Source: a virus
Length of the DNA: 58,297 nt
IMG/VR virus record: IMGVR_UViG_3300024255_002562
Coordinates: 1 to 58,297 of that record
Direction: 5' to 3' (one strand)
The notes beneath the pieces were generated by a model. The model ran no database searches. It was not told where the DNA came from and worked only from the letters and a program-made list of their open reading frames with translations. Numbering within the stretch: the first letter of the stretch is position 1; every line of letters begins with the position of its first letter. Shown here in pieces: positions 2,870-54,034 of this stretch. Made by a program: the position numbers and the translations under genes.

Positions 2870-3531
2870 TTTCTCCAATTTGTTTTGTAACTCTTTATAG
2901 AGTCAGGTATAGTATCTGTTTCGTTCGTAAATTTATTTAGTTTTTTAATCATTTTGATAGCAAGGTCTTTTTCTACCTCATGAATACTTTCATATATTTT
3001 ATCAACTGAAATGAATTTTTCAACATCAATATCTAAACTTTGACATTTTTTATCAATTAAATTCACTTGCTGTGGCTGAATTCTTGTTTCGGAATTCTTA
3101 GCTACTATCTGAGAAGCATTATCTTTACTATGAAGCTCCTCCGCAGAAACTGCTTTCAGTTTTAAAGCCTTCCGTAAGGCTCTAGCTTCCGCTCTCGTTG
3201 ACGCCATCGCCGGAGCATGTACTAGGAATATATCGTCAGTATTACCTTCCCAAGCGTCTGCTACGTCCCCATACCGCTTCTCCGTGCCATTCTTAGTGAG
3301 AAAAGCAACTTCATATCTAACTGAAGCTCTGCCAGCGGCGTCACCTTTTACCCACTGGGTATCTACAGGTGAACTAAAAATAATTTCTCCAATAAACTTT
3401 TCTGCTAATCTTCTCAATCCATGAACCAACGGATTACCGTCTCTCATTTCATCTTCGCTTAAAAGAGAAAGCACATAGTCGCTCCATTCCGGAGAAAGCA
3501 TATCCGGCTTAGATTCTTCTCGTTCTACCAT
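2866..3531 (-). CDS. hypothetical protein with annealase-like RAEARALRKAL segment
   Basis: A 221-residue protein with a strong ribosome site (GAGG, 6 nt before ATG 3531). Residues around 40-60 (HGLRRLAEKFIGEIIFSSPV) and 110-125 (ASTRAEARALRKALKL) resemble the conserved segments of phage recombination/annealing-type proteins where a TRAE-RALR-AL helix ends the core domain; this is a pattern impression only. The C-terminal 80 residues are lysine-rich and probably flexible. It overlaps the upstream endonuclease gene by 23 nt and the downstream gene by 4 nt. Confidence 0.55.
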   Translation of the reverse strand: MVEREESKPDMLSPEWSDYVLSLLSEDEMRDGNPLVHGLRRLAEKFIGEIIFSSPVDTQWVKGDAAGRASVRYEVAFLTKNGTEKRYGDVADAWEGNTDDIFLVHAPAMASTRAEARALRKALKLKAVSAEELHSKDNASQIVAKNSETRIQPQQVNLIDKKCQSLDIDVEKFISVDKIYESIHEVEKDLAIKMIKKLNKFTNETDTIPDSIKSYKTNWRK

Positions 3532-4309
3532 CTTTTACCTCAATTTCAATAAGTCTTTGTCCAGATTTCGGAAATTTCTTTTTTATCTTATTTATTTCCT
3601 CAACCACAATATCTAAAAGCATGTTCATTTTTGTAAGAGAAATACTCTTGTCAACTTGACGTATTCTCAGCACAGCGTAACCAGTTTTTAGAAGAATCCC
3701 CTGCTTTATTATATCTGAATTTTTCTGCTTTTGTAACTTTTCTTCACCCCAAATTGGCAAAAAATGTCCGGGTCCATCTATTTCTATAGCGGTTTTTAAT
3801 TCCGGCAAAAACAGGTCTATTTCAAGCTTACTACTAGCTATGACATTTTTATGGAACTCAACTCTTACCCCTATTTCCTCTAGCTTATTTTTTAAGTGTC
3901 TTTCTGTTTTAGACCCCTCTTTACTAGCACGTCTGACCGCCTCCATAGCTAAACTAGAAAGATTATCTTTTTGTTCTTGAGACATTTTATCCCAATTATC
4001 CTTACTTGTTTTAGAGACCTTTTCTCTTTCCAAGTCCGTCATGCGATCCCAAGCTTTAGCTCTTTCTATTCCTATTTTTCTTTTATGTTCTTCTGATAGG
4101 GTTTTTCCTTCTGTTGGATGTTCCGCCCTGCCATTTTCTATAGCCATAATCTGTGCTTCTTTATAGTCACGCTTTTCAACTCCAAGATAAGTTAAAGCCC
4201 TCAGTATCTTAGTTGAGTACGTATCTAATTCTTCAGCTATTTGATAACTGCTATGTCCATCAGCGTATAGCTCTTTTATTCTTTTTCCGTTTCTTTTAGC
4301 AAATTCCAT
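3509..4309 (-). CDS. homing-type endonuclease, HTH + NUMOD3 + Vsr-like nuclease
   Basis: A 266-residue protein. Residues 8-35 form a helix-turn-helix (ELYADGHSSYQIAEELDTY), residues about 60-80 a NUMOD3-like DNA-contact element (HPTEGKTLSEEHKRKIG), and residues 135-235 a Vsr/EDxHD-type nuclease domain (FHKNVIASSKLEIDLFLPE, AIEIDGPGHFLPIWGEEK, then GYAVLRIRQ). The D-E-GPGH pattern is that of very-short-patch-repair-like homing endonucleases. It overlaps both neighbours, which looks like an invasion of the sugar/DNA operon by a free-standing homing gene. GGAG precedes ATG 4309. Confidence 0.8.
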   Translation of the reverse strand: MEFAKRNGKRIKELYADGHSSYQIAEELDTYSTKILRALTYLGVEKRDYKEAQIMAIENGRAEHPTEGKTLSEEHKRKIGIERAKAWDRMTDLEREKVSKTSKDNWDKMSQEQKDNLSSLAMEAVRRASKEGSKTERHLKNKLEEIGVRVEFHKNVIASSKLEIDLFLPELKTAIEIDGPGHFLPIWGEEKLQKQKNSDIIKQGILLKTGYAVLRIRQVDKSISLTKMNMLLDIVVEEINKIKKKFPKSGQRLIEIEVKDGRTRRI

Positions 4310-7873: not shown

Positions 7874-9482
7874 TTTTACTATTCCTTATGTTTTCCCAAT
7901 GGTTTATTAACTTACCCATTTCTTTTATCATTTTTAAAACCGTCTCTCTATTGATAGGTCTTTCTTGTATTTTTCCGTGGGCGGACATATCCGAATAAAA
8001 ATACCCGCCAAAACCGCCCTTTGTTCTCCCCATATTCAAGTCTCTAAGCAGAGACCTAGCAAAATAAGAATTGACTTTTGTCTCATCTGCATATTTAGAC
8101 ATAGCCCATTCTATAAACCCCTTATTACTTATATTTTCTGGAGGTTTTTCATTATTAATATCTTTGATTTTTGGAGGGGTGGACCAATCAGCAAAAGGCA
8201 TACTGTCTACAGCATCCATCCATACCTTCGCGGACTTGTCCCAACTATAGTGTTCATCAAAAGCTTGTTTTGTTTCCATCCCTTTCTTTTTTATTAGTTC
8301 TAGAGGTTTACTAAAGAACTTTTCAAAATAATCAGCAAGGGCGTCCGGATCAACAACGGCTCTATCGCATCCAGTTTCTAATTCTTTGTAGAGAGTGTAT
8401 TTTATAGGATCAGCATTTAACTTAGAGACTATATCACTCATTGCAGAATAGTCAACAGTAGCTATTGGAACCCCACAAGCAGCAGCTTCAACTTGAGGAA
8501 GACCAAATCCTTCACTAGAAGCACATTGCACATAAAGGTCAAACAAGTTGTATATCTCAGAAAGAGTTTCAGAAGAAACGCCGTTTGAAACAGAAACAGG
8601 TAAAGAAGAAAATCTATTACAAGCACTGCATTGTTTGCACGCATCGTGGAATTTGCATATCTCTAAGTTATTGCAGGACTTACACATGTACGAAAAAATA
8701 ACCCTTGAGGATATCTCATTCTCATGAAGCAGCGTCCCTATATCCCATCCATTATCAGGATAACTAGTGTGGCAATACAAAAAAGTCTTTGTGTCTTTTG
8801 TTTTCTTTAAATATTTTCCGAAAGCTTCGAATAATGCTGGGAATAATTTTCTTCTTTGATTCCTCATTACCGTTCCAATGATATTCATAGATGGGTCCAT
8901 TCCCAATTTTCTTTTGTGATCCTCTTTATTTAATGGCTTAAAGCACTCAGATGCCGATGGAGGAGCCGCTGACAAGAAATTGGTACTATCAGTCATTTGT
9001 TTTTTGAGCGAATCTAACGCCCAATCAGAGTACGTGATGATGCCATCCATACTTCCATAGACGTGAAGCCACTCTTTGTTTTGTGGATAGGCATCAACAG
9101 TAGGCATCCATATGGATTTAAATATACGTCGATACGGAGACTTATAAACAAAAGAATCCATCCAATAATCCCGAATTAGAAGGACGACATCAGCTTTAAA
9201 ATCTAAACACACTTGTTCAAAACGCCATGATCCAAATTGATGTTCAGGAGAACTTGAATAAAACTCTGTTTCTTTTTTATTAGTTTTGTCCGGCATGTTC
9301 GGGTAGTTTTTCCACCGCATACCTTTTCTCTCGACAGCATCTTCTGCACCATAAATGGAAAATTCAGCTATTTCATATTTTCCAGAATCATAGAGTCTGT
9401 CAAGTATTTGCTTTGCATAAGTGGCATACCCTGTACTTAAATAAGTAGCCTCCGTCAAGAATAACACTCTTTTTTTTCTCAT
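7866..9482 (-). CDS. GT4-type glycosyltransferase with cysteine-rich insertion
   Basis: 538 residues. The GT-B fold is seen in LSTGYATYAKQILDRL at the N-terminus, IGTVMRNQRRKLFPALFEAF for the start of the second domain, and YVQCASSEGFGLPQVEAAAC with CGVPIATVDYSAM for the EX7E-like donor site. Between them, near residues 265-290, is a cysteine knot (CKSCNNLEICKFHDACKQC) with seven cysteines within about 30 residues, not standard for GT4 and probably zinc- or disulphide-stabilised. A long C-terminal extension of about 100 residues follows. It starts 4 nt inside the sigma-like gene. Confidence 0.85.
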   Translation of the reverse strand: MRKKRVLFLTEATYLSTGYATYAKQILDRLYDSGKYEIAEFSIYGAEDAVERKGMRWKNYPNMPDKTNKKETEFYSSSPEHQFGSWRFEQVCLDFKADVVLLIRDYWMDSFVYKSPYRRIFKSIWMPTVDAYPQNKEWLHVYGSMDGIITYSDWALDSLKKQMTDSTNFLSAAPPSASECFKPLNKEDHKRKLGMDPSMNIIGTVMRNQRRKLFPALFEAFGKYLKKTKDTKTFLYCHTSYPDNGWDIGTLLHENEISSRVIFSYMCKSCNNLEICKFHDACKQCSACNRFSSLPVSVSNGVSSETLSEIYNLFDLYVQCASSEGFGLPQVEAAACGVPIATVDYSAMSDIVSKLNADPIKYTLYKELETGCDRAVVDPDALADYFEKFFSKPLELIKKKGMETKQAFDEHYSWDKSAKVWMDAVDSMPFADWSTPPKIKDINNEKPPENISNKGFIEWAMSKYADETKVNSYFARSLLRDLNMGRTKGGFGGYFYSDMSAHGKIQERPINRETVLKMIKEMGKLINHWENIRNSKNG

Positions 9483-9925
9483 AAATTTTCTTTTACTTTG
9501 TTCAGTTCTTTTTTAACAAAATTCTTTGACCTCTTAACCGTATTGCATATTTCTTTGTTTGAGGCTTTATCTATCTTTAAATTAATTATCTTTTGAACTA
9601 CAGTTGGATAACTTTGGATAATGTCGTCAATATAGATTTCATCTTCATATGATTTTTTCGACAACATACCTTCGTTTATTGTTAAGTGACCAGTATGTTT
9701 TCGTAGTTTTTTTATATACTTGATCATATCGTTATTCATGCACGTCGTGATATATGTTGATATCTTTGATTTTTTTGAATCGTACTTGTCTAAGTTTTTC
9801 CACATAGACATATTTCCAACCTGCATCAAGTCTTCGTAGTCATATGATGGATCAAACCGTGAATACTTTAAAGCCAATTTTGATATCAGCCCCTGATTTT
9901 CGTTTATGTATTTTTCTTTATTCAT
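9479..9925 (-). CDS. sigma-70-family factor, short phage type
   Basis: 148 residues. Region 2 is recognisable: LISKLALKYSRFDPSYDYEDLMQVGNM matches the 2.1-2.2 core-binding segment (YEDLxQxG), followed by KISTYITTCMNNDMIKYIKK for 2.3-2.4. The C-terminus (KASNKEICNTVKRSKNFVKK) is a small helix-turn-helix consistent with region 4. It is likely to redirect host RNA polymerase to phage promoters, for example the GGTGTA-type promoters described in this window; that link is inference. Confidence 0.8.
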   Translation of the reverse strand: MNKEKYINENQGLISKLALKYSRFDPSYDYEDLMQVGNMSMWKNLDKYDSKKSKISTYITTCMNNDMIKYIKKLRKHTGHLTINEGMLSKKSYEDEIYIDDIIQSYPTVVQKIINLKIDKASNKEICNTVKRSKNFVKKELNKVKENL

Positions 9926-9926
9926 T

Positions 9927-10655
9927 TTATATTTGAAATATGGATTCTATGATAAAAGATTTTCTTGTCTTGTCTTTTATTTCACCAGACATTAAAACTG
10001 TAGATTCTTCATATATTATATCCTTGTGTTGCCCATATAACTCCGTAAATATAACAATATTTTCTAATTCTCCAGATTCATCTTCTATTGAAAGGAATGC
10101 CATAATATCACCTTTTGTTGTTTTGTGAGTTTTGACTCTTTTTATAATGACCGCTAACGTTGATTTTGAGGTCTTTCCTTCTGATACCTCTTTACAGGTA
10201 GTATCGGCAAAGCTTGCGTCACTACATGCACTAAGTTGAGAGTGGTTAATTTCAACCCCAAGTAGTTTTTCTTCTGCCCTAGCATAAATGGCAGGATCAT
10301 CAGATAAAGACCTTCCGGGGTTTTTCAATTGAGATAACAGCATTTTCACTTTATCTCGCCTTCTGTCGGACGATATAAAACCGCCCTCTTTTTTTGTACC
10401 TTTACTTAGCAAGTTTTCAACATGCATAAATATAGGATCGTTTTTATTGTCTTCATTTATCAAGGAAACTAACCCCTCTAACTCCTTTTTGGTCATAGCT
10501 CCTTTTGCAGTGATAAGAGATGACACATGATGTGACATTTCAGACCTACTAACTCCAAATAAAGACATCGCTCCTGACTCTATCAAGTTTTTAGACATCG
10601 TTTTATTCAAACCGGGAATTACCTTGAATAGCATTTCACTCCAAGTGATATTCAT
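9927..10655 (-). CDS. DNA polymerase III alpha C-terminal module: HhH and OB-fold as a separate protein
   Basis: 242 residues. The C-terminal 80 residues match the OB domain at the end of bacterial DnaE: TKGDIMAFLSIEDESGELEN, then IVIFTELYGQHKDII and VLMSGEIKD. The N-terminal part (VIPGLNKTMSKNLIESGAM) resembles the helix-hairpin-helix region that precedes it. It follows the fingers-domain gene with a 4-nt overlap, so it probably assembles with that protein and the palm protein. It could serve as a single-strand-DNA-holding subunit. No catalytic residues are expected here. Confidence 0.75.
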   Translation of the reverse strand: MNITWSEMLFKVIPGLNKTMSKNLIESGAMSLFGVSRSEMSHHVSSLITAKGAMTKKELEGLVSLINEDNKNDPIFMHVENLLSKGTKKEGGFISSDRRRDKVKMLLSQLKNPGRSLSDDPAIYARAEEKLLGVEINHSQLSACSDASFADTTCKEVSEGKTSKSTLAVIIKRVKTHKTTKGDIMAFLSIEDESGELENIVIFTELYGQHKDIIYEESTVLMSGEIKDKTRKSFIIESIFQI

Positions 10656-11488
10656 AATAGCTCCTTCATTATTCCAACGTACTTGTCCAGATGTGCTTTT
10701 CCGATACTTTTAATATCACATATCCCAAAATATAAATCATTATTAACTATTTCGAAAGTTTCATGCGGATGTTTTAGAGTTGGTCCAAATACTTTTATAT
10801 CATCAGACTTTGCAGACAGGACTAACATCTTCTTATATAAATCCGGTTTTATCTTATGTTTCGCGTTTCTAAGTGAATGTTTATAAAACACTATCGATCT
10901 ATTGCATTTTCTGTAAGCGGACGCATAAGCCATCAAAGCGTAACCTACAGCGTGGGACTTATTGAACGAATAGCGATTCGATTTTTCGATAATGCCAAAT
11001 ACTTCATGAATCTTTTCCTCTGGTACATTATTTGATCGACAGCCTGTGACAAACTTTTCTTTTACCTGCTTCATCAAATCAGCTTGTTTTTTTCCAATAG
11101 CTTTTCTAAGGGAATCAGCCTCTTCTAGTGTAAAACCAGCCATTACTTCTGCAATTTTCATAGCTTGTTCTTGATATACGATCACTCCGTAAGTTGGCTC
11201 AATGATATGATCAATTGACTTATATAAACTTTTTACTTCTTCTGTCTCATGTTTTCCATCGACGTAAATCTGAGCCATATTCTTTCCGTTGACTTTGTTA
11301 GCAAGACACCCCGGACGAATGATGGATATAACGTCCGCTAATTCTGCAATAGTTCTAGGTTGTGCTTTTTGACACCAAGTTTTACCAAGATATCCTTCTA
11401 TTTGAAAACACCCTTTTGTTTTTCCTTCACAGATCATATCCCACACATTAGTGTCGTTTTTGTTTTCATCTAGAAAAATATTCTTCAT
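10652..11488 (-). CDS. dnaE: DNA polymerase III alpha, fingers-domain fragment as a separate protein
   Basis: 278 residues corresponding to the DnaE region just after the third catalytic aspartate. Residues 5-35 (WDMICEGKTKGCFQIEG) match the DnaE D-ML--G-T-GVFQ-E segment; SIIRPGCLANKVNGKNMAQI, PTYGVIVYQEQAMKIAEVMA, and SNRYSFNKSHAVGYALMAY follow as in the canonical enzyme. The YSFNKSH site where cyanobacterial DnaE carries a split intein is intact. Translation is coupled to the exonuclease gene by TAATG. It must work with the palm protein encoded two genes upstream. Confidence 0.88.
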   Translation of the reverse strand: MKNIFLDENKNDTNVWDMICEGKTKGCFQIEGYLGKTWCQKAQPRTIAELADVISIIRPGCLANKVNGKNMAQIYVDGKHETEEVKSLYKSIDHIIEPTYGVIVYQEQAMKIAEVMAGFTLEEADSLRKAIGKKQADLMKQVKEKFVTGCRSNNVPEEKIHEVFGIIEKSNRYSFNKSHAVGYALMAYASAYRKCNRSIVFYKHSLRNAKHKIKPDLYKKMLVLSAKSDDIKVFGPTLKHPHETFEIVNNDLYFGICDIKSIGKAHLDKYVGIMKELL

Positions 11489-12180
11489 TAAGCACCTTTT
11501 GACTTAAATACGTTCTTAAAATCTTTTTTAGCCGCAATCCCTCTAATCATTTTTTGGTAACGAATAAACACTTCCGCAGTCATAATAACGTCAGACATAG
11601 CATCGTGTGCAGTTCCTTTAGCGTATCCCATATGTTTCCTAATAAGATTATCAGCACTTAAAGAATTAACATCCTTATCGTTTTCAAATAAAGTGAACAT
11701 CTGATCGTATACGTCTATTGATGTAATTGGATTAAAGATTCCTTGCGTTTTGAATTTTTTATCAACGGGACCGAAGTTATATGGATCAGACATACATAAT
11801 CTCTTAACTATAGGATTATCAAAATTCTTAATATTATAACCAACAGCAATAGGTGCTGTAAAGCTATTTCCTTTATAGTTATATTGATTAACATAATCTA
11901 CAAAGTTTCTCCAAACGGATTCAGTCTCTGGTGCATCTTCTAGAATTTCTCTAGTTTTTCCGTGAACAGCTACCGCTCCCGGTTGAAGTGGGTCAAGCCC
12001 AAGCTTTTCGCACTCGTCTTCGTCGAAAATAGGTTTCATTAGTGATTCAAATTCACTTCCCGGTATAATTTCTAATTTACGAGAATGGATAGCTACGGCA
12101 GCAATTTGCACAGGCTGTGTGCGGGTCGGGTCTGCTGATGAAGTCTCGAAATCAAATACGATAAAACTCTTATAATTCAT
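11488..12180 (-). CDS. DnaQ-like DEDDh 3'-5' exonuclease
   Basis: About 230 residues when started at ATG 12180, which has AAGGAG 6 nt upstream; a longer start at 12210 lacks such a site. The three exonuclease motifs are present: FIVFDFETSSAD (ExoI), AVGYNIKNFDNPIVKRLC (ExoII) and GTAHDAMSDVIMTAEVF (ExoIII with the DEDDh histidine). It is most likely the proofreading subunit for the divided polymerase, because it lies between the palm and fingers genes, overlapping the former by 11 nt and the latter by 1 nt (TAATG). Confidence 0.9.
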   Translation of the reverse strand: MNYKSFIVFDFETSSADPTRTQPVQIAAVAIHSRKLEIIPGSEFESLMKPIFDEDECEKLGLDPLQPGAVAVHGKTREILEDAPETESVWRNFVDYVNQYNYKGNSFTAPIAVGYNIKNFDNPIVKRLCMSDPYNFGPVDKKFKTQGIFNPITSIDVYDQMFTLFENDKDVNSLSADNLIRKHMGYAKGTAHDAMSDVIMTAEVFIRYQKMIRGIAAKKDFKNVFKSKGA

Positions 12181-13972
12181 ATTTTTCTCCTTCGATGACG
12201 TAAGGGTCATCGTCTATGTCCGTCAGGACTTTAAGTAAGTTAACTCCTAAAATATCTACTTTTACTCCACCACAAGCTTCGAGGTCTTCCATCTGCATAC
12301 TTGCTATCAATTCTTCGCTATTTTTTTGACGAATCATCGGGCATATTTCAACAATAGGATCGCATGAAATGACAACTCCAGCAGCATGTTTACCTTGAGT
12401 CTTGTATATGCCTTCCATCCTGATAGCTTGTTCAAATTCTCTAGCGAAATCCCCTTTGATTTTATCTCCTTCGAGCCAACAATAATCAGCTAAAGAATCC
12501 GGATCATTCTCTAGTGACCACATTATCACAGATGGATCATCCATTTCTTCCAGTAAATCGGAAATGTCTGCTTCAGCTACTATCTTTTTTGTTATTTCGT
12601 TCATTTGATCAGGAGAGCATGATTCATTAGCACGAAAAACTTCTTTAAGAATAGATCGACCAGCCATTTTTCCATATGTGATCATCTGACAAACATTTTC
12701 GCTGCCGTATTTTTCACGAATATAGTTAATAACATCCTCTCTCACATTAGGAGGAAAGTCAATATCAATATCTGGTAACGATATATTGTCTACGGTATTT
12801 CTTCCTTTATTATAAAACCTTTCAAAGATTAAGTCAAACTCAATTGGGTCAATTAACGTAATTCCAGATAAATAACAGACTAAAGAACCTCCACTCGACC
12901 CTCTTCCCGGAGCTATAAGTACGCCTTGTTTTGCAAAGTGATTAACATAATCTTGTACGATCAAAAAATAGCCAGATAACTTTGCTTCTTTAATAACTTC
13001 TATTTCGTGATTAAATCTTTTTTCATACTTTTCTTGATTTTCATCAGGCACAAGCCTGTTCCAATTACTTTTACATAATTCTATCAAGTAATCTATTTCA
13101 GATTGACCTTCTGGAGTTTTAAATCGAGGTAATTTTGGGGAAGAAAGAACGTTAAATTCCTCACACTTAGAAACTAACGAATCCATATTATCTAATAGCC
13201 AAGATTGATAAGCTTCAGAAATGCTTTCAGGCTTTTTGATATAGTAGTTTACATTCCTGATAAACTTCATCATTTCAGGTCTGTTCTCTATTTTACTGAC
13301 AAGTTTGTTCAGCGTTGAATGAGTTTCAACACACATCAAAATTTTATGATCAATATTATCTTTTCTCTTAGGATAGTATGTTTCACTAGACGGTATTACG
13401 TTTAGGTATCCAGAGTCTAATATCAAGTCAGCCATAATAGAAGCTTCTTCATACTCCTCAGATGCCATTAAGTCTATCTCAAGGTAGTAATTATCGCCAA
13501 ACATATCACATAGTAGACTTATATGGTCATTTACTATCTCTTTTTTTTCTTGTTCTTTTGCTTCACTAATACAATTAAAAAGAAAGCTACCAATATATCC
13601 ATCTATACAAATGAAGTTGCTGCAATCAATTAGACTGAATAGTTCTTCTTTTGGAATCATTGCGTGAGTCGTATAATGCTTCTCGCTATTAGCGACAGAG
13701 ATTACTTTTAGTAAGTCTTTCCATGCCTTTTTGTTTTTACATATTAGTGTAATCTTAGAATCATCTTCAAAGACTACGTCCAATCCAATAATTGGAGTGA
13801 TATCATTTTTTTTACAGCTTTTGATAAACTTAATACATCCGCTAATGCTAAGAATATCTGTAATTCCGGCGTACTTATACCCATACTCTTTACAATGCTC
13901 AACAATCTTCTCGCATTTTGATGTTGCTTTTAATAATGAGTAATGAGAGTGATTTCTAATTGGGTGATACAT
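12170..13972 (-). CDS. dnaE: DNA polymerase III alpha, PHP and palm domains as a separate protein
   Basis: 600 residues. The N-terminal PHP domain starts with HPIRNHSHYSLLKAT, but the second motif reads AGITDILSISG, lacking the usual TDH histidine, so PHP metal binding is probably impaired. The C-family palm is clear: GVLIAPGRGSSGGSLVCYLS, SLPDIDIDFPPNVREDVINY (two catalytic aspartates), and near the C-terminus GGVKVDILGVNLLKVL with the third. The protein ends about 20 residues after that aspartate, where a normal alpha subunit continues into the fingers; those are encoded two genes downstream. Confidence 0.92.
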   Translation of the reverse strand: MYHPIRNHSHYSLLKATSKCEKIVEHCKEYGYKYAGITDILSISGCIKFIKSCKKNDITPIIGLDVVFEDDSKITLICKNKKAWKDLLKVISVANSEKHYTTHAMIPKEELFSLIDCSNFICIDGYIGSFLFNCISEAKEQEKKEIVNDHISLLCDMFGDNYYLEIDLMASEEYEEASIMADLILDSGYLNVIPSSETYYPKRKDNIDHKILMCVETHSTLNKLVSKIENRPEMMKFIRNVNYYIKKPESISEAYQSWLLDNMDSLVSKCEEFNVLSSPKLPRFKTPEGQSEIDYLIELCKSNWNRLVPDENQEKYEKRFNHEIEVIKEAKLSGYFLIVQDYVNHFAKQGVLIAPGRGSSGGSLVCYLSGITLIDPIEFDLIFERFYNKGRNTVDNISLPDIDIDFPPNVREDVINYIREKYGSENVCQMITYGKMAGRSILKEVFRANESCSPDQMNEITKKIVAEADISDLLEEMDDPSVIMWSLENDPDSLADYCWLEGDKIKGDFAREFEQAIRMEGIYKTQGKHAAGVVISCDPIVEICPMIRQKNSEELIASMQMEDLEACGGVKVDILGVNLLKVLTDIDDDPYVIEGEKYEL

Positions 13973-13973
13973 A

Positions 13974-15005
13974 TTATATTTTTGGTCCTACTTCTGAACT
14001 GTCATCTTTAGCTAACACTCCTCCGCCATCACCATAAATTTTTAACTTCTTAATGTTTCCATATTTCTCAGTAACGGCATCTACTCCTTCAGATTTTATC
14101 ATCTGATGATACTCATTGCAAGTGGAAGTTCCAGTTTCTTCGTTTATTTTAGAAAAAGCACAAAGATATTTGCATTTCCAGTGAGTTTGATCCCTAGATA
14201 TCTGCTTAGGAACTTGAACATTTTTTATGTACTGGAATTTTTGCTTGATCATATTCTCAGCTTTTTTGAAATCATCATCATCAAAAGCTATGTCAAATAT
14301 ACCGCCATCATTTACATAATAGATACTGATATAGAATTCACGTTCCGGAAATTTCCGTTTGAGAGCATAGTAGTATAATAACAACTGCGGGTCTTTAGTC
14401 AAGCATTCGTAGGTTTTTTCTTTGCCTGTTGCCCAATTTAACCTCTTCCCCGATTTATAATCTAGGATTCTAAAGTATACATCGCTTTCTTTAATTACAA
14501 CATCTACTGTTCCTTTTATAGATAAATATCCAGATACCTCCTCTTCTTTTATTTTGTATTTGTACTTCGCCCAGTCTTCCTTTATTTCTATGTCAAAAAA
14601 TAATTCCGTATCAATAATTTCTTGATTTCGTGGGTCTAAACTACAATTATTATAAGTGATGGCTTTGTTAACCCATCTGATGCACTGCCTCAAGTCCGCT
14701 GGAGTTAGGTCTACGTCTGTCTCATGTGCTTTATAGTGATTGAAGCTAATAGTTGTAATATAATCAATATCGTCGCATTGCTTTAGCGTCAAGTCTTCAA
14801 TGTCGTCATTCTTGACTTTTCTTTTATTGTTATTTTGAGCTATTTTCTTATCCCCCAAAATTTGTAAAGCCCTATGCATTATTGTACCAAGAACAGCTTT
14901 CTTGTTAGTCTTACCTCTAAAACCAAGAGTGTACTGAAAGAAATATTGCATTTCACACATTCCTAGTGTGCCTATAGAGGAACTTCGGAGGTAGCATACT
15001 ATCAT
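13974..15005 (-). CDS. Cas4/AddB-like PD-(D/E)XK exonuclease
   Basis: 343 residues of the RecB/Cas4 nuclease group. The N-terminus has a lone cysteine in SSSIGTLGMCEMQYFFQYTL followed by GTIMHRALQILGDKK; the nuclease core is SIKGTVDVVIKESDVYFRIL then DYKSGKRL (D ... DYK), QLLLYYYALKRKFP follows as motif QxxxY. Late cysteines (HWKCKYLCAF and STCNEYH) complete a probable iron-sulphur cluster with the first one. Start ATG 15005 overlaps the upstream stop as ATGA. Likely role: recombination or DNA-end processing. Confidence 0.85.
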   Translation of the reverse strand: MIVCYLRSSSIGTLGMCEMQYFFQYTLGFRGKTNKKAVLGTIMHRALQILGDKKIAQNNNKRKVKNDDIEDLTLKQCDDIDYITTISFNHYKAHETDVDLTPADLRQCIRWVNKAITYNNCSLDPRNQEIIDTELFFDIEIKEDWAKYKYKIKEEEVSGYLSIKGTVDVVIKESDVYFRILDYKSGKRLNWATGKEKTYECLTKDPQLLLYYYALKRKFPEREFYISIYYVNDGGIFDIAFDDDDFKKAENMIKQKFQYIKNVQVPKQISRDQTHWKCKYLCAFSKINEETGTSTCNEYHQMIKSEGVDAVTEKYGNIKKLKIYGDGGGVLAKDDSSEVGPKI

Positions 15006-15871
15006 ACTTTCACCTGTTGCTTATTCATGCCTTCTGCGGGACTAATAACATTATTATCAAAAAGACCTTTCATAAGAGCATCGCACGACTCATGTATTGT
15101 CATTTCTCTATTGTCGATGACTAGATCATACTTCAAGTAATTATCACAGTTATTTTCGGAGTCATGAGATTGATTGAGTGGATTTCTTAATAAACGAACC
15201 AAGAACGCCCCTTTTTCTTTAAGAGTCTCTAATTCGTCTACAAACCTGCAATCTGATATGATTGATAACTCAGAAGATGATGCACTTATTCTTTCTACGC
15301 AATTGTCAATCCATACGTTTAAATACATCTTACGCATAATGTCAGTCCCAAAGAACTGAAGGACTTCACGAACAGTCATTTTTCCAGCTTCATGAAAAGT
15401 AAGACCGAGTTCTTTTTTAATATACTTTTTGTAGTCATCTAAAGAAAAACCATCCTTTCCAACTCCAGCATGAGCCATGTCAGTTTTACACGTTTCTGGA
15501 GTTACTACCGATGGCATGTTTTCCCATCTTAGATTTGTCTTTTTGTTTTTATCTTCATTAGTTCCATAAAGATCGTTAATATCTACATGAAATAATCCAG
15601 AGACAATCTCTTTCAAAGAGTCAGCCATGCTAAATTTTTTCACAAAAGGATAAATGTAATTCTCTGCATAACTAACAAACTCTGCCGTTTTTTTATTTAG
15701 GTTGACTATTCCCATTTCGTCATTACCAACGTCAACAACTAACTGACCATCCTTTGAGATAAAATACTTAGTTATAACATCATTTCTTACTAATTCATAT
15801 CCATGTAAAAAATTTGATAGCGTATCTTTTCCTGATTGTGCTTTTCCTGATATTGCAATAATTTTACTCAT
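15002..15871 (-). CDS. deoxynucleoside monophosphate kinase-like P-loop protein
   Basis: 289 residues beginning with a P-loop, IIAISGKAQSGKDTLSNFL, typical of T4 gp1-type dNMP kinases. A lid/substrate region includes EVLQFFGTDIMRKMYLNVW near residue 170 and SIISDCRFVDELETLKEKG near 200, both characteristic of this family. It would phosphorylate dNMPs to dNDPs for phage DNA synthesis. It overlaps the primase gene by 8 nt and the nuclease gene by 4 nt. Confidence 0.85.
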   Translation of the reverse strand: MSKIIAISGKAQSGKDTLSNFLHGYELVRNDVITKYFISKDGQLVVDVGNDEMGIVNLNKKTAEFVSYAENYIYPFVKKFSMADSLKEIVSGLFHVDINDLYGTNEDKNKKTNLRWENMPSVVTPETCKTDMAHAGVGKDGFSLDDYKKYIKKELGLTFHEAGKMTVREVLQFFGTDIMRKMYLNVWIDNCVERISASSSELSIISDCRFVDELETLKEKGAFLVRLLRNPLNQSHDSENNCDNYLKYDLVIDNREMTIHESCDALMKGLFDNNVISPAEGMNKQQVKV

Positions 15872-16838
15872 TTATTATTCTTTCTATTTCTGGTTTTATT
15901 GTTTTATGTATTTCTTCAACAGACATATCCTCTATGTCATTATTAGTCGATCTTAAGTCGTGTATATCAAACTGATAGCTTAGTCTATCATGAATATCTT
16001 CCCTGCATCTTTCTCCAGCTTTGTCATTGTCTGTAATAATTATTAATTTGTCAACATTCATTTTTTGAAGTAGAAATTCCTGAACGTCACTCAACTTAGA
16101 ACCAAACAAACCGACAGCATTCTTAATACCAGATTCCCATAATCGAAGAACTCCGCCCTGTCCTTCCACTATAACAACGGTAGATGTTTGTGCTATTGTA
16201 TCCAAAGCTCGGCTATGATTGTATAAATAATTTCTAATATTGAAGTTTTTTTGATTCCTCCATCTAAAAGAATCATCTGTACTGCGACCGACACATCCTA
16301 CCATTAAGTCACCAGACTCGTTATATACAGGAAAAACTACCCTATTATACATTTCCGAGTTAGGCATTGTACAAAGACCGACATCAAATTCATCTAAAGT
16401 TTCTTTTTTAAATCCTCTATTGATATATTCCTTAGAGGGTATTTCTAAAAATTTTCTTATATGATCTTTTGTGTTCTTTTTATTAACTGTTGATACAGAT
16501 TTTTGCATAGGTTTTTTAATTCTCTTTGTCTTTTTTTTGCTTTTGCAAAACGACTCAACAAATAGAACCATATCACGAAATGAGCATTTTTTATTAGTTT
16601 TGTTAGACAGTAAAGCCTGAATTAAAGATAAAATATCTCTTCCATGACACTCATGACACTTCTTCGTGTTACAAAACCATATTCCATAGAACTCGCTGTC
16701 CTCATTAATATTTATATTGAAAGCCGAAAAATTATCTCCATCATGCACAGGGCATGTAGAAACAAGCAACTCGCCACTTTGATAGTAATTATTGACTTCA
16801 AAGAAATCTAATAAATCAAAAATCCTCTCCATCGCCAT
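15864..16838 (-). CDS. dnaG: DnaG-like primase (zinc finger + TOPRIM)
   Basis: About 324 residues. Zinc-binding residues CPVH and CNTKKCHECHGRDILSLIQ lie in the first 80 residues, as in bacterial/phage primases. The TOPRIM domain is seen in TVVIVEGQGGVLRLWESGIK with the catalytic glutamate, then KLIIITDNDKAGERCREDI with the DxD-type acidic motif. The start is uncertain: ATG 16838 and 16832 both lie inside the end of the helicase gene, and a longer reading to 16895 would overlap by 80 nt. It is short for DnaG and lacks an obvious C-terminal helicase-binding domain. Confidence 0.87.
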   Translation of the reverse strand: MAMERIFDLLDFFEVNNYYQSGELLVSTCPVHDGDNFSAFNININEDSEFYGIWFCNTKKCHECHGRDILSLIQALLSNKTNKKCSFRDMVLFVESFCKSKKKTKRIKKPMQKSVSTVNKKNTKDHIRKFLEIPSKEYINRGFKKETLDEFDVGLCTMPNSEMYNRVVFPVYNESGDLMVGCVGRSTDDSFRWRNQKNFNIRNYLYNHSRALDTIAQTSTVVIVEGQGGVLRLWESGIKNAVGLFGSKLSDVQEFLLQKMNVDKLIIITDNDKAGERCREDIHDRLSYQFDIHDLRSTNNDIEDMSVEEIHKTIKPEIERIINE

Positions 16839-18282
16839 CTGCTTCAAAAGGGCAATCTTCTTTATCTGGAAAGCCTTGCTGTATAGAGTTCTCATTATTT
16901 TTAAGGCTCCTTATTGTACCTATTTCTTTTACTTTTGCCAACGATCCGTGGACTTCTAAACAAACATATCCTTCGTCCTCCATTCCCGGACCATGCCTTG
17001 ATGCCACAATTATCAATTTTTTGTTTCCATTTCTATGTCCATCCGTGTTTATCTCATCCTGAGTCTTGTCTTTAAAGATAGTAAAGCTAGTACATAGCCA
17101 AACAAGCCTATCTGAGCCAGAAGCCACATCCGATGTTTCTTTTGTTATTCCATCTCTATTTAGCTGGACAAAAGCTACGCAAGGGCAATCATGCTCTACG
17201 CAGAAATTATGTAAAGCAGTAATCTGAAAGCCCAGCACTTGAAATTCAGCAAGGTTTCCGTTGATGCTAGATGAATCCATAAGCTTCAAATAATCAAAAA
17301 CAATTAGACAGTCGTTCAAGACCCCATTTTCATCATATCCGACTTCTTTAAGAACCCACCTTCTAGCAGTAGAAAGTATTTCATCAAACTGTTTTCCAGC
17401 GATACTAATATAAGAATACGGAATAGAATCTATCTTATTACTAGCTTCAAGAACTCTATTAATATGCTCTTGATTACCTTGAAAGCTCCCGTCACTGATT
17501 TGATTAATTTCCACTCCACTTAAGTTAGACAACAATCTATTATGGTGATCGGTTTTGCTCATTTCTGTATCCAGCATAAGAACTGGAATATTCAAATTGG
17601 AACTAATATTTAAGGCAAAATTATCAGCTAAAATACTTTTTCCCGTTTTTGGACGCGCTCCTATCAGGTCAACGCATTTTCTTCGAAACCCACCTCCGAT
17701 AGCTTTGTCATATTCGCTCAGTCCGCTTGGTATTCCAGCAGGTTTTGGTTTATTTTCTAGAAGAGATTTTACATATTCATGTATGTCGGAGCCAATTAAC
17801 TGTGGGGTAGTCTCTTCTTCCTTCATGTAAGACAGAGATATTTTTTGAAAAGGAGCCTCAGCTAACGAAAATATTTCACTAAGCTTTTCGTCTCCAGAAA
17901 CTTTTCCTATATTTTCATAGATATTCTTGCATTCAGACTGCATTTTTCTAGCAAATTCAAGTCTGCTTATTTTCTTTCCATGATCTCTTATAGAATCAAG
18001 ACCAACAGAAAGATTAAACAATGAATCTAGTTTATCAGAAAATCCATCCCTTTTAAAAATTTCATCTAATCCTAGAGTTTGAGAAGAAGACCTAATCATA
18101 GAATAGTCTATCTTATCGCAATCCTTCTTAAAGGCATTCTCTAGGCATTTAAAAATTACTTTATTATCATTATTTACAAAAGTGCTTTCCTGAACAAATC
18201 CATCAATATCAATAAATGCTTCTGTTCCATACTGAATCAATCCAGACAAAACGGCATCTTCTGAAGCTAAATTCGTTATCAT
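16816..18282 (-). CDS. dnaB: DnaB-like replicative helicase
   Basis: About 488 residues from ATG 18282, which overlaps the preceding stop as ATGA. The N-terminal DnaB domain is seen in SEDAVLSGLIQYGTEAF. The RecA-like ATPase has Walker A VDLIGARPKTGKSILADNF, the following IPVLMLDTEMSKTDHHNRLL, Walker B CLIVFDYLKLMD, and a terminal arginine-finger region (HRNGNKKLIIVASRHGPG). The hexameric ring would unwind the phage replication fork and pair with the primase encoded just downstream. Confidence 0.92.
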   Translation of the reverse strand: MITNLASEDAVLSGLIQYGTEAFIDIDGFVQESTFVNNDNKVIFKCLENAFKKDCDKIDYSMIRSSSQTLGLDEIFKRDGFSDKLDSLFNLSVGLDSIRDHGKKISRLEFARKMQSECKNIYENIGKVSGDEKLSEIFSLAEAPFQKISLSYMKEEETTPQLIGSDIHEYVKSLLENKPKPAGIPSGLSEYDKAIGGGFRRKCVDLIGARPKTGKSILADNFALNISSNLNIPVLMLDTEMSKTDHHNRLLSNLSGVEINQISDGSFQGNQEHINRVLEASNKIDSIPYSYISIAGKQFDEILSTARRWVLKEVGYDENGVLNDCLIVFDYLKLMDSSSINGNLAEFQVLGFQITALHNFCVEHDCPCVAFVQLNRDGITKETSDVASGSDRLVWLCTSFTIFKDKTQDEINTDGHRNGNKKLIIVASRHGPGMEDEGYVCLEVHGSLAKVKEIGTIRSLKNNENSIQQGFPDKEDCPFEADGDGEDF

Positions 18283-18743
18283 CCAATTTCCTTGTACGCA
18301 CATCTTTCACATTTGTATATATCGCCTTCTCTTAAGTATTTAAGATAGACTTTTCGTTCTTTCTGGCAAGAGGCACACTTCATAATTCTAGATGGTGACT
18401 TTCCTCTTTTAGATGTTATTACGGAAGAGTCATCAATATGACTAGCTCCATCTTCTTCAGTTTTTATAGATTTAGCAATTTTATCGTTAAAACTATTACC
18501 CTTGAAAGAAACCGATTCTCTTCCCTTCTTTTTTGTAGCAGAAACAATAACATCTTCTTCTTCTTCTTTGGCTGGTTGAGAGGTAACGGCAGGCTTCTTC
18601 TTGGGTCTCCCCCTCTTCTTTTTTACTGGTTTTTCTACTTCTTCACCTAACATATTGCACAACAGAACAAAAGCCTCGTCGTTTTTACCATTTTTCATTT
18701 TCACATGAATAGCTCTTAACTCTTTTAAAAAATCACCTAGCAT
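18279..18743 (-). CDS. AT-hook and zinc-ribbon hypothetical protein
   Basis: 154 residues. A basic KKKRGRPKKKPAV segment around residues 38-50 is a textbook AT-hook, preferring the minor groove of AT-rich DNA. The C-terminus carries four cysteines, CASCQKERK and YKCERC, in a zinc-ribbon arrangement. The middle is low-complexity and charged. Located directly before the helicase, it may be a helicase or replisome accessory protein; that role is inference. Confidence 0.6.
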   Translation of the reverse strand: MLGDFLKELRAIHVKMKNGKNDEAFVLLCNMLGEEVEKPVKKKRGRPKKKPAVTSQPAKEEEEDVIVSATKKKGRESVSFKGNSFNDKIAKSIKTEEDGASHIDDSSVITSKRGKSPSRIMKCASCQKERKVYLKYLREGDIYKCERCAYKEIG

Positions 18744-33481: not shown

Positions 33482-34333
33482 ATGAATTTCCTTTTTATTA
33501 GTGACTACTCCCTTGAACACACAATCGGGGGTGCTCAACGTAGTAACGACATAATTCTAAAAGAAGGTGTGAAGCGAGGTCATTCTATAACGGTACTAAA
33601 TATAGATACAGAAGAGAAAGAAATACTTGACAAAGAATATGATTATGTTATAAGCTCTAACTTAGAAGCGTTCAACAGATTTAAGCCTCACGTAATTAAA
33701 TATATACAGGAGTCAACAAGTCATATACGGCTAGAACACGACATGTGTAGGTATCTAACTTCTAAAGATAGAGCCTTGTTGTACAAGAATTGTACCATAA
33801 GTTTCTTCCTAACTGAATATCATTATGATATATTTAAGGAGCAATATGGAAATATATTCACTAATGTAGAAATTGTATCCGATCCTATTGATGTTTCCAT
33901 TTTTTACGACATGAAGCTAGAAAGAAAAGACAGAATACTATATGCTGGCTTCTTGCATCCACTAAAAGGGACTGATAATTTTTGCAAATTTGTTCATGAT
34001 AATCCTCAGTTGAATTTTGACGTTGCTGGATGGGGTGATCCTAAATATGAGGACTTCTTTAAGAATAGTGAGAATGTTGAGTTTTTGGGAAAGGTCGATT
34101 ACTCAGAAATGCCGGAACTGTTTAATTCCTACCTTTCTTTTTATTATGTTCCTGTTATAAGTGAGCCATTCTGTAGAACATTTGCTGAAGCTCATCTATG
34201 TGGAATACAGAACTTATACTGCAATGAAATAATCGGAAGTCTACATGATATAAAGACTTACGGAAATGAAGAATTTAAAAACAGGTGCGGGAAAGCACAA
34301 GAAACTTTTTGGGAGAAAATAGAAGATGAATAA
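33482..34333 (+). CDS. GT4-type glycosyltransferase
   Basis: 283 residues. IGGAQRSNDIILKEGVKRG at the N-terminus is the GGA-x-R acceptor loop; ILYAGFLHPLKGTDNFCKFV starts the second domain and YVPVISEPFCRTFAEAHLCG is the E-x7-E donor motif. It opens the rightward cluster with a ribosome site CTGGAG 9 nt before ATG. The protein is shorter than most GT4 enzymes but motif-complete. Confidence 0.85.
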   Translation: MNFLFISDYSLEHTIGGAQRSNDIILKEGVKRGHSITVLNIDTEEKEILDKEYDYVISSNLEAFNRFKPHVIKYIQESTSHIRLEHDMCRYLTSKDRALLYKNCTISFFLTEYHYDIFKEQYGNIFTNVEIVSDPIDVSIFYDMKLERKDRILYAGFLHPLKGTDNFCKFVHDNPQLNFDVAGWGDPKYEDFFKNSENVEFLGKVDYSEMPELFNSYLSFYYVPVISEPFCRTFAEAHLCGIQNLYCNEIIGSLHDIKTYGNEEFKNRCGKAQETFWEKIEDE

Positions 34334-35240
34334 TATTGTTTACACTTACTTTATACAATCAAAAAACGGCGGTAATATTAAGATAGGGTCTTCTAATAAT
34401 CCCGTTAGTAGACTTTCGCAACTTCAGACTGGAAGTCCTGTAGAACTAAGACTTGTAGGAGTCATTAATAAAAATATTGAATCAGAATTACATACTCGTT
34501 TTTATAAACATAGGCATCATAGAGAATGGTTTTATCCAGATAAAGAGATTTTAGATTTTATAAAAAGTTCGTGTAGTGATGATTATTCAAAATATATTTC
34601 AAAAAACCTTCTAAAGCTTAAAGGAAAAACCGTAGAGCTAGATATAGTGCATAATCTAAATATAGGAACAAATTCTAAGGCACAGTTAAGTTTTCAGCAT
34701 GTTTTTGATATGAATAATTTTGATGACTGGTGTGATAGTATTGATATATATAATTTGTTTGAGGATAAAATTTTTGATATAGATTATGAAGATGAAGATA
34801 TTGATGAAATAAGGAGTATTGATGATGAGATTGAAGATAGGGCATCTTATCCAGAATGCGAGTATGATGTAATTGATAGAATGTTATTATATATGGATGA
34901 GTCAAATAATGAAAAAACTTATTTTAATACAAGTAACAATTTTTTTGATAAAGTATGTATAAATACTGATGATTGTTATTTTTGTATAACGTGTGGACCT
35001 TGTAGTTCTTCTAACAGACGTGAGATAGTAAAAGGACTATCAGATATAGTTGATGAGATGGATGAATTTACTGGAGCTTGGGCATTCTTTTTGGTTTTTG
35101 ATGGTGATGAAGATAGAATCCTTGATTTAATGCAGTATAATATATATAATAGATGTAAAAGTATGCATAATTTAACTGACGATTTTTTTATGGTTGATCC
35201 TAAACTACTAATGAAAGATAAGACTACTAATAATGATTAG
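34326..35240 (+). CDS. GIY-YIG-like (T5orf172/MUG113) nuclease-domain protein with acidic C-terminal domain
   Basis: 304 residues. Residues 5-90 are a T5orf172/MUG113-type GIY-YIG domain: VYTYFIQSKNGGNIKIGSSN, SRLSQLQTGSPVELRLVGVI, then ESELHTRFYKHRHHREWFYP. The remaining 200 residues are very acidic (DIDYEDEDIDEIRSIDDEIE) and low-complexity with a cysteine group (DDCYFCITCGPC). Domain fusion of a nuclease with a DNA-mimic-like acidic region is unusual. It overlaps the GT4 gene by 8 nt. Confidence 0.75.
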   Translation: MNNIVYTYFIQSKNGGNIKIGSSNNPVSRLSQLQTGSPVELRLVGVINKNIESELHTRFYKHRHHREWFYPDKEILDFIKSSCSDDYSKYISKNLLKLKGKTVELDIVHNLNIGTNSKAQLSFQHVFDMNNFDDWCDSIDIYNLFEDKIFDIDYEDEDIDEIRSIDDEIEDRASYPECEYDVIDRMLLYMDESNNEKTYFNTSNNFFDKVCINTDDCYFCITCGPCSSSNRREIVKGLSDIVDEMDEFTGAWAFFLVFDGDEDRILDLMQYNIYNRCKSMHNLTDDFFMVDPKLLMKDKTTNND

Positions 35241-35383
35241 TTTGCTATGCCCAACTAGAAATAGGGTAAAAATGTTAGAAAGGATGTGGTCGTCGGGGGT
35301 ACGAATATCATGCTTTTGAAAATGATGAGGTTGGGATTTGGATTTTTCATATTAAAAGAGTATTACCAAGAACGAAAGAGTAA
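35233..35383 (+). pseudogene. remnant of a glycosyltransferase gene
   Basis: ATG 35233 opens 28 codons (ISLLCPTRNRVKMLERMWSS) identical in style to the N-terminus of phage glycosyltransferases, then stops at 35319. From 35298 a second frame continues (GYEYHAFENDEVGIWIFHIK) to a stop at 35383, just before the next gene. Together they look like the two ends of one gene with the middle deleted. This fills the only gap of this cluster. Confidence 0.6.
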
Positions 35384-35385
35384 TC

Positions 35386-35973
35386 ATGATAAAAGTTTTA
35401 ACTGCTTTCTTTTTACTTGTCTGCACCGTAGGTGCATATGCTGAATCACCTTATGTTCAAGTAATAGATGAAGAATGGAGAAATCATTCTGGTGTGGTTA
35501 TTAAGTCAGGAAAGATTATAAAAGTATTAACTTGCTCTCATATGGTTATGCTTCATGGATCGAAGCAAATTAATGTAAAGTTTTACTACGGAGATACTTA
35601 CATCAGTTTGCCAGCTAAAATTAAGAAGATTGATCACGGTAAAGACTTGATGCTCTTAGAGGTGAGTAATGTAGCTAATATTAAAATCACTGAAGTTAAG
35701 GTAGCCGACTCTGTTGAAAATATCAATTGTATTATTAACGGTTATGTGTTTAAAAATAAACAAATTATATACTGTGTTTTCGATAATTCCGTAGTTACAA
35801 CTAGTCAAGATGGAAGTGAAATTTATAATTTTAAAGGAAAAGGGGTTTCCGGCATGTCTGGTTCCGCGATTCTTTCAAATAATAAGATAGTTGCTATTCA
35901 GTCTGCTGGATCGAATCGTATAATTGGGGCTAGTTTTGTGGTTATTAAGAACTTTATCGGAGATAAGGAATGA
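35386..35973 (+). CDS. secreted trypsin-like serine protease
   Basis: 195 residues. A signal peptide (IKVLTAFFLLVCTVGAYA, cut before ES) is followed by a chymotrypsin-fold protease: VLTCSHMVMLHG carries the catalytic histidine, KDLMLLEVSN the aspartate and GVSGMSGSAILSNNKIVAIQ the serine. The family is DegP/trypsin-like, usually larger with PDZ domains, which are absent. Export of a phage-encoded protease suggests periplasmic or envelope action. ATGA coupling to the next gene. Confidence 0.85.
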   Translation: MIKVLTAFFLLVCTVGAYAESPYVQVIDEEWRNHSGVVIKSGKIIKVLTCSHMVMLHGSKQINVKFYYGDTYISLPAKIKKIDHGKDLMLLEVSNVANIKITEVKVADSVENINCIINGYVFKNKQIIYCVFDNSVVTTSQDGSEIYNFKGKGVSGMSGSAILSNNKIVAIQSAGSNRIIGASFVVIKNFIGDKE

Positions 35974-36164
35974 AACTTAAACCCTGTCCATTTTGTAACG
36001 GTAAACCAAAAATAACATTTTGTGAAGAAGAATGTTGTGGAGCTAAGCCAAGGTGGGTTAGATGTAAATGTGGATTTTTTTTGTTTGCAACATGCGATAC
36101 AGAAGAAGAAGCTATTAAAATTTGGAATACTAGATATGAGGTAAAAGATGTTGATGATGAATAA
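35970..36164 (+). CDS. Lar-like restriction-alleviation zinc ribbon
   Basis: 64 residues with the Lar family pattern: LKPCPFCNGKPKI, RWVRCKCGFFLFATCDTEEE, AIKIWNTRYE (CPFCG ... RC-CG ... TEEEAI--WN-R). Family members such as Rac prophage Lar reduce type I restriction of incoming DNA. ATGA overlap with the protease gene. Confidence 0.85.
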   Translation: MKLKPCPFCNGKPKITFCEEECCGAKPRWVRCKCGFFLFATCDTEEEAIKIWNTRYEVKDVDDE

Positions 36165-36645
36165 TCTGATTTTTCTTTTATTGCTGTCATCAACAGCATA
36201 TGCTGATAAAATTTACATTGCTCTTAACGATAGCGAGCCTAGTAAAAATATTCGTAAATCTTTATATACTAATTATTTACAGTATGGTAGTGATGACGTT
36301 TGGCTCGATCTAGACTTTAGAAGAAATCAGATATTAGATAGTGTAGTTGTAATTAATGATTTTGCAATACATGAACAATTTCAATGTCCTCAGATAAAAC
36401 TAAGAGAACTGGATTATTGGCAGAGGGTTCCCGGAAATTTGCCGGATTTTGTTCTTTGGCTTGATTTTTTTGAGTATTGTATAGATGAAAAGACCTATAA
36501 TAATAGAGTAGAAAAGTGGGAACAATTCGAGAGGTTAAAAATGAGATTCTTCTATTATACTTTTGATTACGAAAAATTTTTCTTTAAACGATCTATGACT
36601 AGACCAGATATACGAAAACCGCCAATGGAGTTTAAATTAAAATGA
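36148..36645 (+). CDS. exported hypothetical protein
   Basis: 165 residues. GAGG 6 nt before ATG 36148 decides the start. The N-terminus MMNNLIFLLLLSSTAYADK is a signal peptide with cleavage after TAYA. The mature part is aromatic-rich (DFVLWLDFFEYCIDEKTYNN) with no family recognised. It starts 17 nt inside the Lar-like gene. Confidence 0.6.
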   Translation: MLMMNNLIFLLLLSSTAYADKIYIALNDSEPSKNIRKSLYTNYLQYGSDDVWLDLDFRRNQILDSVVVINDFAIHEQFQCPQIKLRELDYWQRVPGNLPDFVLWLDFFEYCIDEKTYNNRVEKWEQFERLKMRFFYYTFDYEKFFFKRSMTRPDIRKPPMEFKLK

Positions 36646-37280
36646 ATATAGACATTAGAAATGTTCCGAGCTACTGGATGACCTGTGATAAAAGCATAGG
36701 GGAGAGGCAGGATGGCTTTGTAGAGATGCAAAAAAGCATAGGCATGAACTCAGAAAAGATGAGCGGGGCAATTACAGAAAATTATTGCATTGGCGTTGCT
36801 GAAGAATATATTAAAGCACTCACGAAAAATCCGGTTCCTTTTTTGATACTTGAAGATGACGCTAGAGTAAACCCGAACCTTGTTGATTTTCCATACACTT
36901 ATGATGTTGATGAGGATGTTGACGCTTTATATATAGGTACTTCAATTGTTGGCAGAATTAATAAAAAGACAGTCATAGGAGTTGCTGCTCAGGACAGAGG
37001 TGATTATTTTCAGATATACAATATGCTTTCATTCCATGCTGTGATTTATACTAGTCAGGAGTATGTTGATAACTGCGTTAAGATTCTCGAAGAGTATATC
37101 GTTAATCCAGTTGGTTCTTGTGACGACCCACTAGCTGAGGACATGAGTCGCTGGAAAGTGATGGCTGTTAAGACTCCTGTGTTCTATCAAAATGATGGAA
37201 GAAATGAGGGCATGACCCTAACTCCATTGACAGAAACAGGTATTAAAAGAGAGAATACATATTTTGGACCACCTTTGTGA
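36642..37280 (+). CDS. GT25-like glycosyltransferase
   Basis: 212 residues. The core PFLILEDDARVNPNLVDFPY contains the E-D-D motif of LPS-biosynthesis GT25 enzymes, and DALYIGTSIVGRINKK follows. The C-terminus carries SCDDPLAEDMSRWKVMAVKT, similar to the family's D-x-L--D segment. ATGA overlap with the previous gene. Confidence 0.75.
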   Translation: MNIDIRNVPSYWMTCDKSIGERQDGFVEMQKSIGMNSEKMSGAITENYCIGVAEEYIKALTKNPVPFLILEDDARVNPNLVDFPYTYDVDEDVDALYIGTSIVGRINKKTVIGVAAQDRGDYFQIYNMLSFHAVIYTSQEYVDNCVKILEEYIVNPVGSCDDPLAEDMSRWKVMAVKTPVFYQNDGRNEGMTLTPLTETGIKRENTYFGPPL

Positions 37281-54030: not shown

Positions 54031-54034
54031 CTGC

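Follow-up and report, generated by a model that had tools for sequence, protein, structure and literature searches.

A phage DNA polymerase III alpha encoded in separate palm and fingers genes with a proofreading exonuclease gene between them

The palm and fingers domains form the heart of the active site of a DNA polymerase and are nearly always part of one chain. Split phage polymerases are already known, also within the C family (PMC7824862). In the T4-like Aeromonas phages 25 and 44RR the polymerase is split as gp43A and gp43B, and the two phage 25 proteins co-purify and are active (PMC2988022). Group 2.2 jumbo phages have a minimal split DNA polymerase III (Pol III) alpha on two proteins, which were proposed to reconstitute the enzyme (Iyer et al. 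2021, PMC7824862). Here we describe a stretch of viral DNA, positions 1 to 58,297 of IMG/VR virus record IMGVR_UViG_3300024255_002562 (58,297 nucleotides in full, hereafter 'the window'), in which four overlapping genes, as judged from their sequences, jointly carry a complete DnaE-type (C-family) Pol III alpha together with a proofreader. It is the particular arrangement of these genes that is new, rather than the splitting of a phage polymerase as such.

A preliminary description of the window had already proposed four open reading frames (ORFs) for this locus, with overlapping stops and starts and with the proofreading gene between palm and fingers. These were confirmed except for the start of the exonuclease gene. 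In the order in which they are read, the four genes are:

12170..13972, minus strand: PHP and palm chain of a DnaE-type Pol III alpha, 600 amino acids (ORF; Pfam PF02811 and PF07733)
11488..12180, minus strand: DnaQ-like DEDDh 3'-5' exonuclease, 230 amino acids, between palm and fingers (PF00929, E 2.4e-11; phrog_192 'DNA polymerase exonuclease subunit', 3.4e-29)
10652..11488, minus strand: fingers chain of Pol III alpha, 278 amino acids, with an unbroken YSFNKSH motif (PF17657, E 1.7e-42)
9927..10655, minus strand: C-terminal HhH/OB part of Pol III alpha as a chain of its own, 242 amino acids (alignment with fused relatives; AlphaFold model; Shine-Dalgarno sequence AAGGAG)

The overlaps amount to 11 nucleotides between palm and exonuclease, 1 nucleotide (TAATG) between exonuclease and fingers, and 4 nucleotides (ATGA) between fingers and HhH/OB. 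The last three genes each begin at an overlapping ATG, with AAGGAG sites for the exonuclease and HhH/OB genes and a weaker AAAGGTG for the fingers gene. The exonuclease start was moved from 12210 to 12180, because AAGGAG is located 6 nucleotides before the ATG at 12180, while the ATG at 12210 has no such site. The overlaps may serve the stoichiometry of the encoded chains.

Pfam assigns PHP and DNA_pol3_alpha to positions 12170-13972, RNase_T to 11488-12210 and DNA_pol3_finger to 10652-11488, and the three alpha pieces match successive, non-overlapping parts of phrog_405 (44-609, 625-884 and 907-1070 of 1190). The Pfam OB match in 9927-10655 is weak and below the cut-off; over its full length, however, the HhH/OB protein aligns with the C-terminal end of the fingers-OB protein that relatives make as a single chain, with 52-53% identity to that of locus L002. 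The locus thus has the PHP domain and the palm with three catalytic aspartates (PDIDxD, KxDxLG), the fingers with the RPG, YQEQ, GKK and FNKSH motifs and, by alignment with the fused relatives and by the structure model, the C-terminal tandem HhH and OB of a DnaE-type enzyme. What it lacks is the single polypeptide, an unusual feature that does not place the sequence family in doubt. The palm and fingers profiles match DnaE far better than PolC. The catalytic residues of the palm are Asp401, Asp403 and Asp573, and the chain ends 27 residues past Asp573, in line with the preliminary description, which had placed its end just after the third aspartate and had also noted the uninterrupted YSFNKSH. 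The AlphaFold model of the palm chain is confident (mean predicted local distance difference test score, pLDDT, of 90.6) and has a complete PHP-palm fold that matches E. coli alpha (2hnh) with a TM score (TMq) of 0.78, and the best PDB match of the likewise confident HhH/OB model (pLDDT 93.1) was 7pu7, Mtb DnaE1.

IMG/VR was scanned with the fingers protein and with one alignment each of fingers and palm sequences. These scans returned at least 191 loci, some of which represent the same contig reached twice, and removal of near-duplicates left 90 non-redundant split loci, the window included. Among these matches, to which all counts below refer, profile annotation of all ORFs revealed the order palm, exonuclease, fingers (with or without OB) in 166 of the 191 listed loci, plus a few variants with the same order. 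The exonuclease gene was found between palm and fingers in 89 of the 90 non-redundant split loci, the exception being L029, and the related phages with the same gene order that the preliminary description had proposed to look for were thus found in large numbers. It should be noted that homologues of the exonuclease were recognized by position and profile only, because a single-sequence search with this protein detected no relatives in viral contigs or phages. Judged from these sequences, the arrangement is the norm in a large clade of uncultured phages, although a split between palm and fingers is rare overall. The earlier view that such a polymerase is very unusual therefore holds in general, but not within this clade, and the split has a second origin in the isolated phage phiT1 (see below).

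The palm chain extends for 0-27 residues beyond the end of the palm model (median of about 4 in 90 sequences), and the fingers chain starts 3-63 residues ahead of the fingers model in the 90 split loci. On Taq alpha the palm profile covers residues 7-635 and the fingers profile residues 651-900 (592-844 on E. coli alpha). This gap of only about 15 residues indicates that the break is located in the short palm-fingers linker and that no domain is missing. Many relatives have an additional ORF of about 75 amino acids, of unknown family, between palm and exonuclease (L004:5071-5289, L006:5035-5244, L008:5062-5298, L028:4589-4819 and L023:7028-7279), which has no counterpart in the window. In L023 it stays beside a fused polymerase, and it could represent a further subunit.

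The catalytic residues are strongly conserved. Palm residues Asp401, Asp403, Asp573, Arg357, Ser359 and His529 are identical in all 90 sequences, and the same is true in the fingers for the Arg of RPG, the Gln of YQEQ, the Arg of LRKA, the Lys of GKK, and the Tyr and His of YSFNKSH. The YQEQ Tyr is kept in 89 of the 90 sequences and the YSFNKSH Lys in 85. With one exception (N->G), all sequences that span the DEDDh residues of the exonuclease conserve them. Only the PHP metal ligands are retained in no more than about half of the sequences, and in the window R6, K15 and I40 stand in place of at least the first His, the Asp and the His of TDH, respectively. Proofreading is therefore expected from the separate exonuclease. 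A full-length alpha gene elsewhere in the genome, which would have spoken against the split enzyme, was not found: a single PF07733 match is present in the window and in each of eleven tested relatives, whose records reach 244 kb. Neither a family A nor a family B polymerase was found in ten records (the window, which is probably a fragment, and relatives of 107-244 kb). A beta clamp (PF02768) was not found in ten records either, which makes it likely that the phage uses the clamp of its host.

Taken together, we observed a complete set of domains in a fixed order, conserved catalytic residues, a break in a linker, no splicing element and no alternative polymerase. These observations are best explained by separate chains that very likely assemble non-covalently into one active DnaE-type polymerase. 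PHP and palm would form one chain, the fingers (with HhH and OB in most relatives) a second and, in the window, HhH/OB a third, and the DnaQ-like exonuclease would be produced between them by coupled translation of one mRNA. Each chain would fold independently and the chains would dock at the palm/fingers boundary, such that the active site is composed of two chains, one supplying the metal-binding aspartates and the other the nucleotide- and template-binding residues. As no splicing element was detected at the break and the covalent routes considered below found no support, non-covalent docking is the route that remains, and the activity of the co-purified gp43A and gp43B of phage 25 provides a precedent for it. 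Judging from the position of its gene, the exonuclease may act on or bind to the split polymerase. Somewhat more speculatively, palm, fingers and proofreading chains could represent a distinct class of replicase in which the exonuclease serves as a structural bridge that couples assembly with proofreading; we regard this as a tentative idea with perhaps one chance in a few.

Several points weigh against this explanation. The physical assembly and the activity of the chains are predicted from sequence, conservation and the T4-like precedent. Moreover, the locus sample was seeded from the window sequence, and its counts do not represent frequencies among all phages. Lastly, the relatives are known from metagenomic contigs throughout, which may not be complete, and the nearest polymerases of isolates, none of them close, share less than 40% identity.

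The alternative that survives best concerns the break between fingers and HhH/OB, which was observed in the window only. Fingers and HhH/OB form one chain in 173 loci and two chains in 1 of 174. It could be argued that the phage makes one longer chain and that a sequencing or assembly error is responsible for this junction: a single-base insertion or deletion could yield a 4-nucleotide ATGA overlap of two frames, the two frames, when joined, reproduce the fused protein of relatives with hardly any loss, and the junction is unique to the window. A search for it in other viral contigs returned two pattern matches, neither of which encodes any of these proteins. However, AAGGAG is located 5 nucleotides before the HhH/OB ATG, a match that precedes only 0.8% of all minus-strand ATGs, and the same hexamer lies ahead of the exonuclease start. 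An error at this junction is therefore rather unlikely, though it deserves to be taken seriously, and the additional break is probably real. The possibility of a sequencing error, raised in the preliminary description, is in this way set aside for the palm|fingers break (see below) and less certainly for the fingers|HhH/OB break.

Much less probable is the view that the phage chains pair with host chains instead of with each other, for example with fingers/OB docking on, or displacing parts of, the host alpha. Some host replisome parts are probably used, as no phage clamp was found in ten records, but the two halves are adjacent throughout the clade and are complete together. It is slightly less probable still that alpha is a decayed gene and that the phage relies on the host polymerase. 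The loss of PHP metal ligands here and in about half of the relatives implies that part of the protein is itself inactive. However, the catalytic residues of polymerase and exonuclease are invariant across a clade with about 35-55% identity, and all pieces are still in frame, in order and overlapping.

Two covalent routes to a continuous chain are comparably improbable. Firstly, split intein halves might join palm and fingers by trans-splicing in the style of cyanobacterial DnaE, and inteins do occur in the same gene set of relatives. In L117 (9515-12340), the N- and C-intein halves of a phage split intein interrupt the fingers gene at YSFNK^SH and are separated by a free-standing endonuclease gene; cyanobacterial DnaE is split only a few residues away. 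The intein of L029 (5830-8385), also in the fingers gene, is contiguous, contains an HNH motif and is located at RY^CFNK, the cyanobacterial split site itself, and L119 has an intein at RPG^C. All of these are, however, located at sites other than the palm|fingers break. An intein at this break was rejected, in agreement with the earlier description: Pfam reported no Hint or intein domain in the window, and the palm tails of at most 27 residues in the 90 sequences are too short for a usual N-intein half. Secondly, the exonuclease gene might lie within an intron, with palm and fingers spliced in one message. This view is favoured by L038 (3600-4290) and L035 (4696-5803), where a segment with a LAGLIDADG or HNH gene interrupts the palm gene within its catalytic motif, NIS^LPDID; these interruptions are probably introns, although Rfam reports none. 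In the window, however, the genes overlap and there is no non-coding DNA that could accommodate an intron core. The palm gene ends with a stop and the fingers gene starts with an ATG of its own, and Rfam gives no intron in the window or in the tested loci. An intron holding the exonuclease was therefore rejected as well. The palm|fingers break is different in kind from the inteins and introns of relatives, being fixed throughout the clade and devoid of a splicing element. Lastly, a sequencing error at the palm|fingers break can be dismissed as virtually impossible, since the same break, with the 690-nucleotide exonuclease gene inside, is present in 89 of the 90 split loci.

Trees of joined palm and fingers sequences placed all split IMG/VR loci in one clade, with a Shimodaira-Hasegawa-like approximate likelihood ratio test (SH-aLRT) support of 100. 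L029, which is split but has no exonuclease, is deepest in this clade, and bacterial DnaE and all sampled isolated phages fall outside it. The split probably arose by a single fission event in the common ancestor of this large clade of phages. A reshuffled form of this gene set is present in L022-L026 and L031, where palm and fingers are fused (854 amino acids) and the exonuclease gene is followed by a separate gene for the C-terminal OB part; in L022-type loci the OB part is itself divided. In quick trees the L022-type loci nest within the split clade (SH-aLRT 96), which suggests that they arose by re-fusion, although an approximately unbiased (AU) test does not reject a placement outside the clade (p 0.149). 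As to the origin of the fission, L015, L020 and L021 have HNH or endonuclease VII-like genes between palm and exonuclease. In other phages, PHP is split from the rest of the polymerase in Gordonia phage Madi, and a LAGLIDADG gene lies inside the fingers gene of Alicyclobacillus phage MMB025. Serratia phage KKP 3709, which is annotated as having several polymerase pieces, was set aside as a possible sequencing error. Endonuclease genes at or near such breaks make it plausible, though unproven, that a mobile endonuclease inserted at the linker and was later lost. No homing endonuclease gene is located between palm and fingers in the window. Elsewhere in the window there is an HNH/homing-endonuclease-like gene (3509-4309, minus strand) and a GIY-YIG-like gene (34326-35240, plus strand), which resembles one at 2438-3421 of L002, immediately ahead of the palm gene there.

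The four genes belong to a minus-strand replication operon with the order DnaB helicase, primase, dNMP kinase, PD-(D/E)XK nuclease, PHP-palm, exonuclease, fingers, HhH/OB and sigma-like protein. Its other members are:

15002..18303, minus strand: genes for dNMP kinase, Toprim primase and DnaB-type helicase (synteny in relatives)
13974..15005, minus strand: PD-(D/E)XK nuclease (Cas4/Dna2-like), whose place next to and upstream of the palm gene is conserved (PF12705; synteny)
9479..9925, minus strand: protein with sigma-70 region 2, encoded next in the operon (PF04542; homologue downstream of OB in L002, L007, L008, L010 and L019)

The replication genes are adjoined by an opposite-strand block (33482-45733, plus strand), several genes of which by eye resemble those for glycosyltransferases, methyltransferases and sugar-nucleotide enzymes. 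A permuted tmRNA with the tag ANRNVALAA is located at 53986-54305 on the minus strand (RF04321 at 54077-54272), with a tRNA-Phe call that overlaps its end, and a DUF7788/phrog_850 'RNA-binding protein' gene (49178-50827, minus strand) adjoins the tRNA genes and the tmRNA. Terminase comparison puts two relatives near Slashvirus and SPbeta-like phages, though at a great distance (identity of about 22-31%).

If the proposed assembly is correct, a large natural clade has a two-chain palm/fingers polymerase without splicing, and docking is one way in which a C-family replicase can be formed. The clade offers many natural variants, namely forms with contiguous and split inteins or intron-like interruptions and fused, two-chain and three-chain forms, that are useful for studying gene splitting and refusion as well as the coupling of proofreading with polymerization. 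For annotation, it means that 'DNA polymerase' genes in such phages represent halves rather than truncated pseudogenes.

Compared with the DnaE alpha of E. coli (2hnh) and Taq (2hpi), the phage polymerase has the same domains in the same order, the same catalytic triad and fingers motifs, and likewise a separate DnaQ-like proofreader. The PHP domain of E. coli alpha has also lost ligands. Unlike in cellular DnaE, the alpha is distributed here over two or three chains, the exonuclease gene lies between the pieces, and the identity is about 25-35%. In PolC, the C-family polymerase of Gram-positive bacteria, the proofreader is likewise encoded inside the limits of the polymerase, but as part of a single chain. 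The split DnaE of cyanobacteria resembles the locus in having alpha in two genes, but is trans-spliced at YCFNKSH inside the fingers, a site that is intact in the window, where no intein halves flank the break. Rossellomorea phage phiT1 (PV767480), an isolate, is split at the same boundary into a palm (gp20, 573 amino acids) and a fingers-OB protein (gp18, 469 amino acids). However, phiT1 lies outside the clade in our tree, has a 49-amino-acid ORF in place of the exonuclease and is annotated only as having two 'alpha subunit' genes; its palm|fingers split is, on this phylogenetic evidence, independent and convergent.

Among phage systems, gp43A and gp43B likewise represent a replicative polymerase in separate chains, but they belong to family B, and their break is associated with an endonuclease gene or untranslated sequence instead of a proofreading gene. 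The split Pol III alpha of the jumbo phages is encoded by distant genes, has a minimal core without other Pol III domains and exists beside a family B polymerase (PMC7824862). The polymerase of the window, in contrast, is encoded in one operon, has all domains, is the only polymerase found and includes the exonuclease gene, a contrast that is drawn from the published description and not from sequence comparison. The palm|exonuclease|fingers arrangement was not found named in the literature searched, most subscription papers being outside our reach. Relative to this literature, the new features are a full-domain, sole polymerase with the proofreading gene inside it and the conservation of this arrangement in about 90 lineages.

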